Below, one piece after another: positions 17,995 through 60,291 of a stretch of 64,000 nt of DNA; the first letter of the stretch is position 1; every line of letters starts with the position of its first letter. A program made the translations under genes and the position numbers. The DNA comes from a virus: IMG/VR virus record IMGVR_UViG_3300025913_000025, positions 43,420 to 107,419 of that record; one strand, written 5' to 3'. The notes beneath the pieces were generated by a model, which was not told where the DNA came from, made no database searches, and worked only from the letters and a program-made list of their open reading frames with translations.

Positions 17995-19464
17995 TCACTT
18001 TTGGATGCGTGCCCCCAACTGCGCCGTGTAGAACGGCGCGCTCGTGTCCCGCCCGTTGAAGTCCTCGAGACTATTCGTCGCGACCTGCCCAGTGCGGCCG
18101 AACAGGGTCAAAAGCAACCGCTCCCCCCGGAGCTGACGCCCAGACTGATCACCGTTGACCGGATAGCTCGACGCTGAACCGGGCATCGGCAGCGCGTAGC
18201 CAACTCCGGACTGAACGACCGGCTCGAAGACGTCCGTTCGCTCCGTGATCCAGAAATGCCAGAAGACCCCGCGCTCGCCGAAGCTCGTCGGCGATGAGTA
18301 GACCGTCGAGACGATCGCCTGCCCGTTCGGGTTGAGCATCAGATCGACCGTGTGCGCGATCGGATCCACCGGCAGCCGGGATCGCTCCAAGCTCGAGTCC
18401 CAGGTCGTCGCGTCGATCACGATGTTGGTCGGAAGCGACGTCTCAGGCGTGTTGGCCGAGATGACCGGCCGGCGAGTGATCGTATAGAGGATCGGCGGCT
18501 CGATAAGCTTCGGCGTGGCGATGGGACCGTTTGTGTAGAAGGCGTCCGAGGCCGGCACGTTCCAACGCGACAGTGACGAGAGCCATGTCTCGATCTCCCA
18601 TTCCGCCACGTTGTCCACAGTGCCGTCGAGGCCTGCAAACCCCCCGCCCGCGACGTCGATGCCCTCGTCGATCCCGTCGAATCCCTGGTCGACATACCCG
18701 TCGCGGTTATCATCGAGACCATTCACTATGAATAGGTATTCCGGGTTGACCGTGATCGGCGTCGAGCCCTGCGCGTCGGTGTAGGTCCGCGTGAGATGCG
18801 AAGCCGCACCGGGCACATCGTCATTGACGAACAATTCGGGGTTCGCCACGGTCATCGGCCCGACCACGGTGTACGACTGCCCGGCCTGCCCGAGCTTGAT
18901 CTTGTCGCCGATTCGGACATTCCAGAACCAGCCGGTTGGATTGTCGAATCCGGCGTGCGTGTCGTTATCGAGGAACGGCGATTGCTCGATCATGAGCACT
19001 TGACCGTAGCTTGGGTTGTTCGGAGAAACCTGACCGCTTGTCGGGATAGTCGGTGGGTAGTAGGGGTAAACCGCGCTCGTCCCGTCCGGGTTGCGCACGG
19101 GATACGGAGGAACTCCGCCGTTGAAGACCATGACGGTCTGCGGCACTGGCCAGACGGTGACGTGACCGCTCGAGTAAGGAGGGCCCGGCTCAATCTGGAC
19201 CCAGCGATTGAACGCCAGGACGGTCGGCGAGTTGGCGTAAGTCGGATCAGGAAGCAAGCGAATTCCTCGTGGAGCGTTGGCCTTGGTGGCGGCGGCTCTA
19301 GCCTGGATCAGTCCGCCTTGCAAGAGCCGTGCCGCTTCCGTGACCTGTCGGTGACGAATCGCCGGGATGATCGACGGCAGCAGCGCGGCCGAGACCAAGA
19401 GAATGATCAGGACCACGACCATCAGTTCAACCAGGGTGAATCCGCTTCGTCTCATCGGCAGCAT
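17995..19464 (-). CDS. prepilin-like protein with N-terminal methylation motif
   Basis: 489 residues. Residues 8-15 are the class III signal GFTLVELM: cleavage after Gly8, the conserved Glu at +5, then a hydrophobic helix of about 20 residues. This is the hallmark of type II secretion pseudopilins and type IV pilins. Residues 251-264 form an Asp-rich loop (DDNRDGYVDQGFDG), probably Ca-binding and common in planctomycete pseudopilins. It is much longer than a normal pseudopilin. It is a bacterial-type gene between phage tail genes and a small regulator, converging on the tail operon, so it is a moron or host-gene candidate. Confidence 0.75.
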   Translation of the reverse strand: MLPMRRSGFTLVELMVVVLIILLVSAALLPSIIPAIRHRQVTEAARLLQGGLIQARAAATKANAPRGIRLLPDPTYANSPTVLAFNRWVQIEPGPPYSSGHVTVWPVPQTVMVFNGGVPPYPVRNPDGTSAVYPYYPPTIPTSGQVSPNNPSYGQVLMIEQSPFLDNDTHAGFDNPTGWFWNVRIGDKIKLGQAGQSYTVVGPMTVANPELFVNDDVPGAASHLTRTYTDAQGSTPITVNPEYLFIVNGLDDNRDGYVDQGFDGIDEGIDVAGGGFAGLDGTVDNVAEWEIETWLSSLSRWNVPASDAFYTNGPIATPKLIEPPILYTITRRPVISANTPETSLPTNIVIDATTWDSSLERSRLPVDPIAHTVDLMLNPNGQAIVSTVYSSPTSFGERGVFWHFWITERTDVFEPVVQSGVGYALPMPGSASSYPVNGDQSGRQLRGERLLLTLFGRTGQVATNSLEDFNGRDTSAPFYTAQLGARIQK

Positions 19465-31105: not shown

Positions 31106-31300
31106 GTGCTGGTCCTGAGCCGAAAACTGAACGAACGCATCATCATCAACGGCAACATCGCCGTCGCCGTGGTCGAGATCCGGGGCGACAAAGTGCGTCT
31201 GGGGATCGAGGCGGACAAGGCAATTTCCATTCATAGAGAGGAGGTGTTCAACAGGATTAACGCAGCCAAAACCGGGGAATCCCAAGGAGAAAACAGTTGA
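31106..31300 (+). CDS. csrA: carbon storage regulator CsrA
   Basis: 64 residues from GTG. Nearly the whole family signature is present: MLVLSRKLNERIIINGNI, VEIRGDKVRLGI, then A...SIHREEV and a polar tail. CsrA dimers bind GGA motifs in mRNA leaders and change translation or decay. A phage copy may retune host or phage messages. The next gene (HNH) begins close behind and may be co-transcribed. Confidence 0.9.
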   Translation: MLVLSRKLNERIIINGNIAVAVVEIRGDKVRLGIEADKAISIHREEVFNRINAAKTGESQGENS

Positions 31301-32766: not shown

Positions 32767-32793
32767 CCACACAGAACGAACAAAGGAGAAGCC

Positions 32794-33714
32794 TTGACCA
32801 TCCTTGCCGACTTCATTACTTCCGTCACAGCGACCGCGTTTCGCGGATCCAACACCGAGCAGTCCGACGCGGTGAAGGCGACCGAGAAAGCCTTTCGCGT
32901 TCATCTCGACCGCTCGTTCTGGGACCGCTACCTCGGCGCGCGTCCCCAGGTCGATCGACCCCCGGTCGGCTCGTTCGCAATGCCGCGCGAGGCCGCCGAT
33001 GAGTTCCGGGCGATCGTCCACGCGAATTCGTTCCTGGCCTGCCGGACCACGCAAGTTAACATTCGCGGCCCGCGGGATGCCGTCGAGACGATCATTGACG
33101 TGACAGGAGCACGCCGGCTGCACATGAAGCCAACGCCATTCATGGGCTTCGCACGGGCGCCGATCGCGGACTTCAAAAAGGAACCGGGCGAGGCACCGCT
33201 CCGGCTCGTGAGGAATGTCGCACGGGCGTTCGGTCAGTTTCTCGATCAGGGCTTTATCGCGGGCACCGGCGACAGGCAGCCGCTCGGAATCATCAACTCC
33301 GCGGCGGCGATCACGGTTCCCCGCGCCTTGAAACATCAGGATGCGGTCGGCACGATCCGGGATGCGTTCTCGCTCTACAAGGAGCCAGACAATTCGTGTC
33401 TCTGGCTGGCGTCGAGCTCGATCAAGTTCTGGGATCTGCTGTTACTCTTCGGCGACATCCCGTACGCCTTTACGGATCTGATGCCGACACTCCTGGCCGC
33501 GAACTGCCTGATGCTCGTCGATCCGCGCGAGTACCTCTCCGCCGTGCGATGGGACCTGGTTGACGTTGCGGCGGCCGTCTCGAATGGCATCGATGTCTCG
33601 CTGATGTTTTCGTTCTACGCCACGGGTGCGCCGCGCTGGGCTGCGCCGAAGGTTCATGAGAATGGCGAACTGTACGTGTCGCCGTTCGTCGGGCTGGCGG
33701 CGGAGGCGATGTGA
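32794..33714 (+). CDS. HK97-fold major capsid-like protein in the early region
   Basis: 306 residues from TTG after AAAGGAG. The pattern fits HK97-type capsid proteins: FGQFLDQGFIAGTGDRQPLG at about 146-165, then IINSA...ITVPRA, a helix, LWLASSSIKFWDLLLL, a loop leading to LLAANCLMLVDPREY, and a strand-rich end. The motif (A/E)GxGxxQPxGil is diagnostic of the P-domain region. It lacks a long N-terminal scaffold (delta) region. It sits among small regulators and nucleotide-type enzymes, 32 kb from the head-tail genes, so it may be a spare capsid, a decoy or something repurposed. Confidence 0.6.
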   Translation: MTILADFITSVTATAFRGSNTEQSDAVKATEKAFRVHLDRSFWDRYLGARPQVDRPPVGSFAMPREAADEFRAIVHANSFLACRTTQVNIRGPRDAVETIIDVTGARRLHMKPTPFMGFARAPIADFKKEPGEAPLRLVRNVARAFGQFLDQGFIAGTGDRQPLGIINSAAAITVPRALKHQDAVGTIRDAFSLYKEPDNSCLWLASSSIKFWDLLLLFGDIPYAFTDLMPTLLAANCLMLVDPREYLSAVRWDLVDVAAAVSNGIDVSLMFSFYATGAPRWAAPKVHENGELYVSPFVGLAAEAM

Positions 33715-34475
33715 AAGACCTGGCTGATCAAAGCTTCCTGTTTGCCGGCCGCCTACTTGTCTGGTTCTCATGCGGGGCCGCATCGGCGGTTGCTGCGAAA
33801 CTAGCCGTCGAGCAATACGCCGATCAGTATCCTATCGAGGTCTGCTATTGCGACACGCTCGCGCACGAGCATCCCGACAACAGGCGATTCCTCAAGGACG
33901 TAAGCGATTGGATTGGCCAGGAGATCAAGATCCTCAAGAGCCATCGGTACGACACAATTTACGATGTCTTCCGCGGCGAGCGGTATCTGAATGGCCCGAA
34001 CGGCGCCCCCTGTACCCGAGCGCTCAAGCGAGTGCCTCGGGAACGATATCAAGATCCGTGGGATTACCACGTCTTCGGCTACACGATGGAAGAGGCAAAG
34101 AGGATCAACGACTTCGAGTCGGACAATCCTAGCCTCCAAACGATCTGGATTCTCCGCGACAACAAGATCGGCAAATCGGAATGTTACCGAAGGCTTCGTC
34201 AGGCAGGAATTGAACTGCCGACGATGTATAAGCTTGGTTACAAGAACAACAATTGCATCGGTTGCGTGAAGGGGGGGGCTGGATACTGGAACAAAATCCG
34301 CCGCGATTTCCCTGAGTATTTCTGGCGAATGGCGGCACTGGAGCGCGAGTTAGGATTCTGTTTGTTGCGGATCAAAGGCGAACCGGTTTACCTGGACGAA
34401 CTCGATCCCGAGGCCGGGCATTTTGACGAAGAACCCGATATTGAATGCGGCCCGCAATGCGTAAGCCGGGTTTAA
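33711..34475 (+). CDS. PP-loop protein (PAPS reductase-like), 1 of 2
   Basis: 254 residues from GTG overlapping the capsid-like stop. PP-loop near the start: SCGAASA at 20-26. Further family features: a YCDT strand end, PCTRALKRVPRE, and a C-terminal Cys pair and aromatic helix (NNNCIGCVKGGAGYWNKI). These enzymes activate or reduce sulfur compounds, or thiolate or otherwise modify nucleic acids; which applies is unknown. Confidence 0.75.
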   Translation: MKDLADQSFLFAGRLLVWFSCGAASAVAAKLAVEQYADQYPIEVCYCDTLAHEHPDNRRFLKDVSDWIGQEIKILKSHRYDTIYDVFRGERYLNGPNGAPCTRALKRVPRERYQDPWDYHVFGYTMEEAKRINDFESDNPSLQTIWILRDNKIGKSECYRRLRQAGIELPTMYKLGYKNNNCIGCVKGGAGYWNKIRRDFPEYFWRMAALERELGFCLLRIKGEPVYLDELDPEAGHFDEEPDIECGPQCVSRV

Positions 34476-34491
34476 ATCAAGAGGTCTGAGT

Positions 34492-35499
34492 ATGGCCGAG
34501 AATCTCGATGATGAACTATCCCGACTGATTGCAAACGTCGATATTTCGACGCCCGAACGACTCGCGAGATTCGAGAAGTGGCGAAACGAAGACGGATCGC
34601 GGCAAGGTTTGCAAGGCTTGCGCAAACGGTCTTCTCAGTCGGCCCCGCGATCGGTTGTCGAAGCCATCGACCAGGCGAAGCGAATCCTCGACGACGCAAT
34701 CGCCGAGTTCGAGCCCGTTGCGATCTACGCTGGATTTAGCGGAGGATTCGATTCGCTCGTCTCGACGCACTTCGCGATCCAGCACAGTCCATCGATCCGG
34801 CCACTCCACATAAACACGGGCATTGGAATCGAACGGACGCGCGAGTATGTGCGTTCGACATGCGGGGAATTCGGATGGTCGCTGCGGGAAGAAAGAACGA
34901 CGGAGAACTATGAGAAGCTCGTCCTCGAGCAAGGATTCCCGGGACCGCCGCATCACGGGAAGATGTACAACCGGCTCAAGGAACGACCGATTCGACGCGT
35001 GGTCGCTGAAGCCAAAACTGGTTGCTCGCGCACCGATACCGTGATGATCATCACCGGGATTCGGGCGGACGAATCGAAAATCAGGACTGGATACAAGCGG
35101 ACAACCTCGAAGGTCGGCTCGCAAGTCTGGGTGAATCCGCTCTACTGGTCGAGTATCGACGTGTTCCGCGAGTACCGGGAAACCCACAAGCTCCAGGCAA
35201 ACCCGGTCTCCGCGAAACTGGGATTCTCCGGCGAATGCCTTTGCGGTGCGAATGCAGAGATCGGGGAACTCGATCGCATCGAGTTCGTGTGTCCCCAAAC
35301 CGGGGCGTATCTCAGAGACCTGGAACGTCGTGTACGTGAAGCCGGGTTTCCGTGGGGATACGAAGGACGGCCACCGGAATGGTGGCTCGATAAGAAGCGA
35401 GGACAAGGATTGCTTGGGGACTGGTTTGAAGACGAGGAAGACAAGGCGTGCGTCCCTGGCCCGATGTGTAACTCTTGCGAGAAAATCAGGTCCGAATGA
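34492..35499 (+). CDS. PP-loop protein (PAPS reductase/DndC-like), 2 of 2
   Basis: 335 residues. SGGFDS at 83-88 is the PP-loop; INTGIGIERTREYV follows the next strand; ITGIRADESKIR is a second family landmark; four C-terminal cysteines (CLCG, CNSC) may hold an iron-sulfur cluster, as in DndC and CysH relatives. It directly follows the first PP-loop gene. A joint role in sulfur or DNA/RNA modification is inferred. Confidence 0.75.
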   Translation: MAENLDDELSRLIANVDISTPERLARFEKWRNEDGSRQGLQGLRKRSSQSAPRSVVEAIDQAKRILDDAIAEFEPVAIYAGFSGGFDSLVSTHFAIQHSPSIRPLHINTGIGIERTREYVRSTCGEFGWSLREERTTENYEKLVLEQGFPGPPHHGKMYNRLKERPIRRVVAEAKTGCSRTDTVMIITGIRADESKIRTGYKRTTSKVGSQVWVNPLYWSSIDVFREYRETHKLQANPVSAKLGFSGECLCGANAEIGELDRIEFVCPQTGAYLRDLERRVREAGFPWGYEGRPPEWWLDKKRGQGLLGDWFEDEEDKACVPGPMCNSCEKIRSE

Positions 35500-58009: not shown

Positions 58010-58141
58010 TTAACGCGGGAATAGTTGGTGAATCAGGATCGTGGTCAGGTCGCGGACCAACGAATGTAACACCGCCGCAATACCGACGATCAGCCAGAAC
58101 ATGCGCTTGCGATCGTCTGGCGGGAGGCTCCAGAAGTTCAT
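58010..58141 (-). CDS. 43-residue membrane protein
   Basis: MNFWSLPPDDRKRM, then a hydrophobic helix (FWLIVGIAAVLHSLV) and a short polar end. Its ATG overlaps the stop of the DUF3560-methyltransferase gene (ATGA), and GGGAGG lies before it, so co-translation is likely. Confidence 0.5.
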   Translation of the reverse strand: MNFWSLPPDDRKRMFWLIVGIAAVLHSLVRDLTTILIHQLFPR

Positions 58142-60291
58142 GCGTCCTCCCGGGTTCTGTTCTCGATGACGACGAGCGCGGAGTTGACCGAGGTTCCAGA
58201 CGCCTCAAAGCTCCCCGGGGGTAGCTCGATGTACTCTCTCGCGATCGCGCGGAGAGTCGCGGATTGCCGCGGGCCGTTGGCGCAGATCGCAACGAGCCGG
58301 CCGCCCGGCGCAAGAAACGTTGCGGCGTGCTGGATATGCTTGATGTCGGCCGCTCCGCCAAAAGGCGGGTTCATGACGATCCTGTCAAACCGACCAAAAG
58401 CCTCGGTCGTGAGCGCCAGAAAGTCGGCGCAGGTCACGGACACACGGTTGCCGAACGAATCGCAGAGTAGCTCCGCGAGTTGATGGTTGATCTCCACAGC
58501 AGAGAGATAACCCCACGGGATCTCGCGGAGGATCGCGCCGGTTCCAGCGCTCGGCTCGAGCACGCGATGGCGGGGCTCGATGTCGGCGAGCTTGACGACC
58601 CGCCTGGCGAGCCCTTCGGGAGTCGGGAAGAGTTGCGGCGCGGAAACGACCTTGACGCCGGCCTTGAGGCTATCGGCCAGTTGTGCGAACGGGTTCTCTT
58701 CCTCGGCCTTCACCTCGGCGCGGAACGCAATGCTCCGCGCGGCCTGGCGTTCCAGGCTGGGAAGGTCGCGAGTCACGGGCGCGATGGCTGGTTTCTCTCT
58801 CTGGTCGGGTGGCGGGGGATCTTTCCGCTTCTGGTCGATCAAGTAAACCGGTTCCGGGTTTTCACCTCGCCAGAGCGCGCGGACTCGATGACGGCCGAAC
58901 TCCTCGGTACCCTTGATTTCCCGCGTCGTCTTATGGTCCTTCCAGGTGCGATCCCATTCCGCTTTGGTCAGCTCGACGACCCGCACAACTCGTGATACCG
59001 GGTTGACGGTGTGAGGAAGGACCGTAAGAACGGCCTCCGGATAGTTGCAGAGCGGCGCGAGCTTGGTTGCTGCCTTGACGGCTGCCACGTCCTCCGGCGC
59101 GGGCGGTTGATGCTCCTTGATTCGCTCGATGGGGACCACTCGCGGATAACTCTTGTTGTTCGTAGAAACCGAGTTGATCGCCCCACCGGACTTGTTTAAT
59201 TTCGTGATGGTGAGCCAGAGTCCCGAAGCGAGGATCTTGCCGCCAACGGCCAGGTCAAAGCCCTCGGCCTTCAGTCCTCCGGATTCCTCCAACATCGCGC
59301 GTTCGTAGGCGATCCGGTTGTCGTAATGGTCGATCCACTGCCGCCGGCGCGTGTAGGGTGGCGAATACGCAGCGACAGCGTAGGTAACAACCTCCTCGAG
59401 CGTGCGCGGCGCGTAGAGATTCGGATAATCATTGGTCAACGCACAATACGCGGTCGGGCTGCCGTCGAAATCCGGTTTGTCGCCCTCCTTGCGCGGGAGG
59501 TTCAACCAACATGCGTTGGCGGCTGCGAGCGCCATTTCGCGCTGTTTGGCCGGGTCTTGTTCGTTCGCAACGGCCGTCCAGAGCCGAAGGTTTCTCTCAG
59601 ACTCCGCGATGCTGCGCTCAACCTTCCTCTTGTCGGCTTCGATCCCTTTGATTCGCCGATGGCGGACGCCCGGGAGCTCCTTGTACTTCGCGTGGCTGAG
59701 CGCGCCGGCCGCGCGATCGGTCCAATACTTCGACGTCTTCCACAGGTCGACGGCCCGGCGCATGCCGTTCTGGATCCGCTCCGCGTCCTTCCGGGCGCGC
59801 CGCTCGGAATGGTGGCCAACAAGAATCGGTTGCCCGAAGGGAATATGATCCGCGATCGCATCGACCGCGCGCCGAGCGGATTCGGCCTCTTGCAGTCGGC
59901 GCCCGGAATAGTCCTCAAACCGCTCGGAGCGCTCCTCGGCTCGTTCGACAAGCGTTGTGTCTTCGTCCCCGATCTCACCGACGAGTTCCAAGAGCAGATC
60001 GTTCCGCTCCGGGGACCAGGCGGGCGCGACGAACAATTCTTGCTTCGGCGCCCAGCAGAACCCCGCAGCCTTCACCCGAGCGTAGAGGTCTGGGCTGAGT
60101 CTCGAGAGCGGATAGAGCCGCAGTTTGTTATCGGCGGGGTCGTAGGTCGCGGTCGCGCCCGCGAGGACCGGCCGGACGTCTTCGGAGTCCTCGGTTGCCG
60201 AGTCTTCCATGTCGAGCTCTTGCGGTTCGGTATTGTCGGTCGCGAGGTCAGTCATCATTTCGTCCTCGGGCGGTAGTGCTTCGGTTTGCAT
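58138..60291 (-). CDS. DUF3560 and DNA/RNA methyltransferase fusion
   Basis: 717 residues. Residues ~50-110: a small module (YDPADNKLRLYPLSRLSPDLYARV ... GFCWAPKQELFVAP). Residues ~120-250: DUF3560 with FEDYSGRRLQEA and IPFGQPILVGHHSERRARK. C-terminus: class I methyltransferase, motif I LEPSAGTGAILREIP, motif IV NPPFGG (641-646), typical of N-6-adenine-type enzymes. The same fusion is known from mobile elements. It may methylate phage DNA or act against restriction. Confidence 0.8.
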   Translation of the reverse strand: MQTEALPPEDEMMTDLATDNTEPQELDMEDSATEDSEDVRPVLAGATATYDPADNKLRLYPLSRLSPDLYARVKAAGFCWAPKQELFVAPAWSPERNDLLLELVGEIGDEDTTLVERAEERSERFEDYSGRRLQEAESARRAVDAIADHIPFGQPILVGHHSERRARKDAERIQNGMRRAVDLWKTSKYWTDRAAGALSHAKYKELPGVRHRRIKGIEADKRKVERSIAESERNLRLWTAVANEQDPAKQREMALAAANACWLNLPRKEGDKPDFDGSPTAYCALTNDYPNLYAPRTLEEVVTYAVAAYSPPYTRRRQWIDHYDNRIAYERAMLEESGGLKAEGFDLAVGGKILASGLWLTITKLNKSGGAINSVSTNNKSYPRVVPIERIKEHQPPAPEDVAAVKAATKLAPLCNYPEAVLTVLPHTVNPVSRVVRVVELTKAEWDRTWKDHKTTREIKGTEEFGRHRVRALWRGENPEPVYLIDQKRKDPPPPDQREKPAIAPVTRDLPSLERQAARSIAFRAEVKAEEENPFAQLADSLKAGVKVVSAPQLFPTPEGLARRVVKLADIEPRHRVLEPSAGTGAILREIPWGYLSAVEINHQLAELLCDSFGNRVSVTCADFLALTTEAFGRFDRIVMNPPFGGAADIKHIQHAATFLAPGGRLVAICANGPRQSATLRAIAREYIELPPGSFEASGTSVNSALVVIENRTREDA

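Follow-up and report, generated by a model that had tools for sequence, protein, structure and literature searches.

The window analysed here covers the final 64 kb of a virus record of 107,419 bases (G000:C1:43420-107419). A second capsid-like gene is located among recombination and replication genes in its interior, and the features at this locus are as follows.

30162, upstream of the capsid-like gene: resolvase-like gene
31106-31300, upstream: CsrA homologue (PF02599, 77.9 bits), phage-borne and in the replication region
31297, upstream: HNH gene
32051, upstream: phrog_1273 gene
32782-32788, + strand: Shine-Dalgarno-like AAAGGAG, five bases 5' of the TTG start
32794-33714, + strand: second capsid-like gene, 306 aa, TTG start (record position C1:76213-77130)
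32794-32934, + strand: N-arm region, residues 1-47, with helices at 2-17, 25-37 and 40-47 in the predicted model
33085-33156, + strand: truncated E-loop, residues 98-121
33262-33288, + strand: GTGDRQPLG landmark, residues 157-165
33403-33462, + strand: shortened A-domain loop, residues 204-223
33711-34475, + strand: PP-loop (PAPS-reductase/SspD-like) gene (phrog_424, E=2.3e-44; SspD, 50 bits)
34492-35499, + strand: second PP-loop (PAPS-reductase-like) gene (PF01507, 41.7 bits)
36666, downstream: RecT-like gene
41338, downstream: DnaB gene

The capsid-like gene is an uninterrupted open reading frame of 306 codons. Its GC3 value is 0.79, its codon score is positive in all six sixths of its length, and its coding signal matches those of the helicase and RecT genes in strength. 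This signal, the Shine-Dalgarno site and a four-base GTGA overlap with the first PP-loop gene (33711-33714) establish that the region encodes a real protein. The overlap also implies that the two genes are probably co-translated. In G+C content and strand the gene is like its surroundings, and no promoter-like site stands out beside it. Judged solely from gene position, expression would be early. The two adjacent PP-loop genes (33711-35499) differ from one another, and the first is similar to SspD, a protein of phosphorothioate defence. Relatives of this first gene in Tunturi_2 and P8625 are also found in recombination/replication regions, where they have no capsid-like neighbour. Farther along the window, positions 58138-60291 (- strand) encode a 717-aa protein that combines DUF3560 with a methyltransferase-like region at its C-terminus (mad2 match in PADLOC).

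By its profile matches, the encoded protein is a divergent HK97-type capsid homologue. The Pfam Phage_capsid family (PF05065) scores it 26.2 bits, which passes the gathering cut-off of 24.2, and phrog_10 matches it weakly (E=4.8e-4). TIGR01554 gives 21.4 bits, which is under the equivalog cut-off of 27.5, compared with 172.2 bits for the phage's own capsid protein. A profile built from about 45 other capsid proteins, with the capsid-like protein left out, scores it 76.1 bits (E=1.5e-22 among the 1,296 ORFs of the genome). Only the real capsid protein scores higher among these ORFs, and none of 1,000 shuffled sequences was reported by the profile as a chance control.

The core of the HK97 fold has been retained, including the N-arm, the P-domain spine, the GTGxxxPLG landmark and the C-terminal SPFV strand. 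Specific positions that are still present include GTGxxQPLG, W204, P223, D243, Y247 and G278. The N-arm can be aligned with that of the phage's own capsid and with that of L009, a close homologue of this capsid (for example, HLDRSFWDRY / HLDPTFKERY). Structure prediction, which had been proposed as a check, yielded an AlphaFold model with an HK97 fold and an E-loop stub (pLDDT 83.6, pTM 0.81). The alignment behind this model contained capsid proteins and biases it towards a capsid fold, so the fold result is supportive without being independent of those proteins. A PDB search with the model gave 214 matches at E<=0.001, the best 50 of which are all capsids or encapsulins. Encapsulins are the best matches, and a GTA capsid and phage capsids are also present. 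In a viral structure library, the fold matches are major capsid proteins. One compact 217-aa HK97-fold match in this library is, judged by its length, probably orf22 of Lactococcus phage Q54 (L066:12449-13102), a 217-aa protein of unassigned function whose gene adjoins a protease-capsid fusion gene. No capsid profile match was obtained for orf22.

We compared loop lengths and near-invariant positions in alignments with 67 homologues. The protein begins at the mature N-arm and the delta domain is absent, because the reading frame opens just nine codons 5' of the TTG start (maximum open frame, 315 aa). Only 24 residues lie between the anchors of the E-loop, compared with 47-55 in the 67 homologues, and the remaining stub appears in the model as strands 98-101 and 108-111. 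Likewise, the A-domain loop is 20 residues long compared with 30-62 in the homologues. Of 33 near-invariant positions, 16 are kept, compared with 26-33 in every homologue. These two loop losses did not feature in the original prediction, which had otherwise correctly described an HK97-type gene in the early region with the GTGDRQPLG landmark, no N-terminal delta region, a location far from the head genes and an overlap with a PP-loop gene.

The ordinary capsid gene of this uncultured phage is located before position 1 of the window, at G000:C1:35288-36862, and encodes 524 aa. It is the other of the two PF05065 matches in the genome, and the Phage_capsid model scores its full-length product 121-123 bits. 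Ahead of it are genes for the terminase (C1:22747), the portal (26661) and a protease-like protein (33192), such that the head cluster spans C1:22747-36862 and the capsid-like gene lies about 40 kb from the own capsid gene. Neither a head protease gene nor a separate scaffold gene adjoins the capsid-like gene, whose neighbours are replication and PP-loop genes. The presence of a normal capsid gene removes the alternative of a sole capsid in a rearranged map. Thus, the capsid similarity and the additional capsid gene on which the original prediction staked itself have both been found.

Several other features of the head cluster were observed. A TnpB/OrfB_IS605-like gene (PF07282, PF01385) is present between the terminase and portal genes at L003:5389-6594 (G000:C1:25389-26594). 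Two NUMOD4/HNH homing-endonuclease-like genes immediately follow the own capsid gene (L003:16980-17600 and 18313-19122), and they occupy the site where relatives have a second capsid gene. A third, weak profile match (12 bits over 26 residues) falls within a head-cluster ORF at C1:31597-32343 (L003:11630-12346, 238 aa). The matching 26-residue stretch, SEHVRFLTNQIVLR, resembles a capsid strand lost from the capsid-like protein, although this match is probably due to chance.

Relatives of the capsid-like gene were sought by single-protein scans, and none was found in 2.9 million viral contigs, approximately 85,000 genomes and 50,697 phage records. The exact string GTGDRQPLGI was not found in the viral contigs, and a scan that used the neighbouring PP-loop gene as the query also returned no relatives. 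For the own capsid protein, no relatives in prophages were detected. A literature search, which covered mostly papers available without subscription, turned up no account of a gene of this kind. A specific kinship with the own capsid gene was considered but is unsupported, as the two proteins share 19% identity over 171 residues (36 bits) and the tree gives no firm placement.

From structural knowledge of the HK97 fold, a chain that lacks the delta domain, the E-loop and the A-domain loop should not form a shell alone. With both its E-loop and its A-loop truncated, the protein is unlikely to be an alternative capsid in the sense of a sole shell protein, although a change in head size through mixed capsids is possible. 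Most likely, the protein cannot self-assemble and has been kept for a purpose other than building a shell. We tentatively favour, at something short of even confidence, the view that it is a non-assembling capsid mimic that acts by interference or as a decoy. This reading draws on the losses, the location of the gene and two precedents. The capsid homologue Ccm, which is 24% identical to its counterpart, occupies pentamers and redirects the assembly of the helper phage, but forms no capsids alone (PMC8569155). Moreover, capsid proteins directly trigger the CapRel defence (PMC9712102).

Under this proposal, the protein would be an ancient, fast-evolving relative of the own capsid that has been kept under selection in a recombination/replication operon. 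It has retained the HK97 core and lost the parts needed for unaided assembly, namely the delta scaffold domain, the E-loop and the A-domain loop. Co-expression with early genes would place its action away from the virion, where it most likely would bind capsid subunits or whatever recognises them. The outcome might be interference with the capsid assembly of rival phages or satellites, or the protein might be a decoy for a capsid-sensing host defence. The more specific version, in which an early-expressed soluble mimic poisons rival assembly or absorbs such a defence, is rather doubtful at present.

A minor structural subunit encoded by a gene that has left the head cluster, comparable to the T4 gp24 vertex protein or to the second of two tandem capsid proteins in related phages, is the most serious competing explanation, and we consider it unlikely. 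It is brought to mind by relatives of the terminase, which led to six uncultivated phages (G025, G027, G028, G029, G037 and G038; L166, L167, L168, L169, L180 and L187) that have a tandem pair of capsid genes, A and B, within the head cluster. The A protein has a long N-terminal extension that B lacks. This pair reflects a capsid duplication, possibly with hexamer/pentamer specialisation, as with T4 gp23 and gp24. In the tree, A and B each form a group (support 93/87 and 94/86), and the two groups are sisters. The own capsid protein and L009 together are in turn the sister of A+B (96/94), and HNH endonuclease genes rather than a B gene lie beside the own capsid gene. The best tblastn matches of the capsid-like protein in three of the tandem phages are B, and equal-sized profiles score it 33 bits (B6) and 24 bits (A6). 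However, unrelated capsid sets, which were chosen for their similarity to the capsid-like protein, score it 46-64 bits. Constrained trees that group it with B fare no better (AU p = 0.394) than those with the own capsid (0.484) or A (0.393), and its terminal branch carries about three changes per column compared with a median of 0.35-0.61. All B proteins have a full E-loop of 50-55 residues, and the location of the capsid-like gene in the replication region also argues against a moved structural subunit. No dispersed or E-loop-less capsid copy was found in the related phages searched, whose records may be fragments.

Another explanation is that the HK97 fold has been repurposed as a partner of the co-translated PP-loop enzyme, for example as an encapsulin-like small shell or scaffold. 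The GTGA overlap couples the two genes, and encapsulins lead the PDB matches, whereas for a control model of the ordinary capsid L009 the first matches are to GTA and phage capsids. However, a short chain that has no long loops will match encapsulins trivially through its size, and the TM-scores are only about 0.5. Encapsulins also have an E-loop and assemble, and many phages have a PP-loop gene without a capsid-like neighbour. For these reasons, we consider such a partnership quite improbable.

The gene might instead be what is left of a captured capsid gene that is now functionless and decaying, which would fit the loss of half of the near-invariant positions and the failure of the scans to find relatives. 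Against this stand the intact frame, the good Shine-Dalgarno site and the strong codon bias throughout, as well as losses that are in-frame and located at two loops. When drift was simulated at 0.3 changes per base without indels, only 1.5% of copies were free of stops. The observed divergence is, in amino-acid terms, about ten times that of the simulation, and no stop or frameshift is present. Therefore, the gene has been under selection for most of its history, although not necessarily up to the present, and a relic is a slightly poorer prospect than the enzyme partner. An origin from a satellite, as the original prediction had raised, or a contig chimera is very improbable: dispersed capsid-like genes do mark some satellites (Ccm; cf-PICIs), but the gene shares the G+C content and strand of its surroundings, is linked to ordinary phage genes on either side within a replication region, shows no satellite hallmark in its annotated neighbourhood, and has no relative in the contigs, genomes and phage records scanned.

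If the capsid-mimic proposal is true, its significance would lie in the fact that capsid proteins are both triggers of CapRel and targets of interference by Ccm, which would make a capsid look-alike a natural site for counter-defence or inter-phage warfare. The protein would also test how far the HK97 fold can shrink before assembly fails. The tandem-capsid phages are useful in their own right, as a lineage in which the capsid protein is duplicated.

Among known systems, SaPIbov5 Ccm is similar in that it is a second HK97-fold homologue of approximately 20-25% identity that is encoded away from the phage head genes; however, it is satellite-encoded and has a delta domain and a helical E-loop, both of which the protein described here lacks (PMC8569155). 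Such encoding by a satellite is absent in the present case, in which the gene has replication genes around it on a phage contig of 107 kb. The tandem phages likewise each encode two paralogous HK97 capsid proteins, and their B proteins also lack the long N-terminal extension, but B adjoins A in the head cluster and has a complete E-loop and core, and the sequences give no clear grouping of B with the capsid-like protein. The T4 vertex protein gp24 is a paralogue of gp23 and a component of the virion. It too is a second capsid paralogue within one phage, but it has the full fold and its gene adjoins that of gp23, whereas the gene described here is dispersed and its product stripped. With the capsids of PF05065 and TIGR01554, the protein shares the core fold, the GTGxxxPLG landmark and the C-terminal SPFV strand, and it differs from them in having neither the delta domain, the E-loop nor a full A-domain loop and in scoring under the TIGR01554 cut-off. 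Finally, encapsulins are its top fold matches and are also compact HK97-fold chains without a delta domain, but identity is only about 12% at a TM-score of about 0.5, and encapsulins keep the E-loop that is reduced here to a 24-residue stub.
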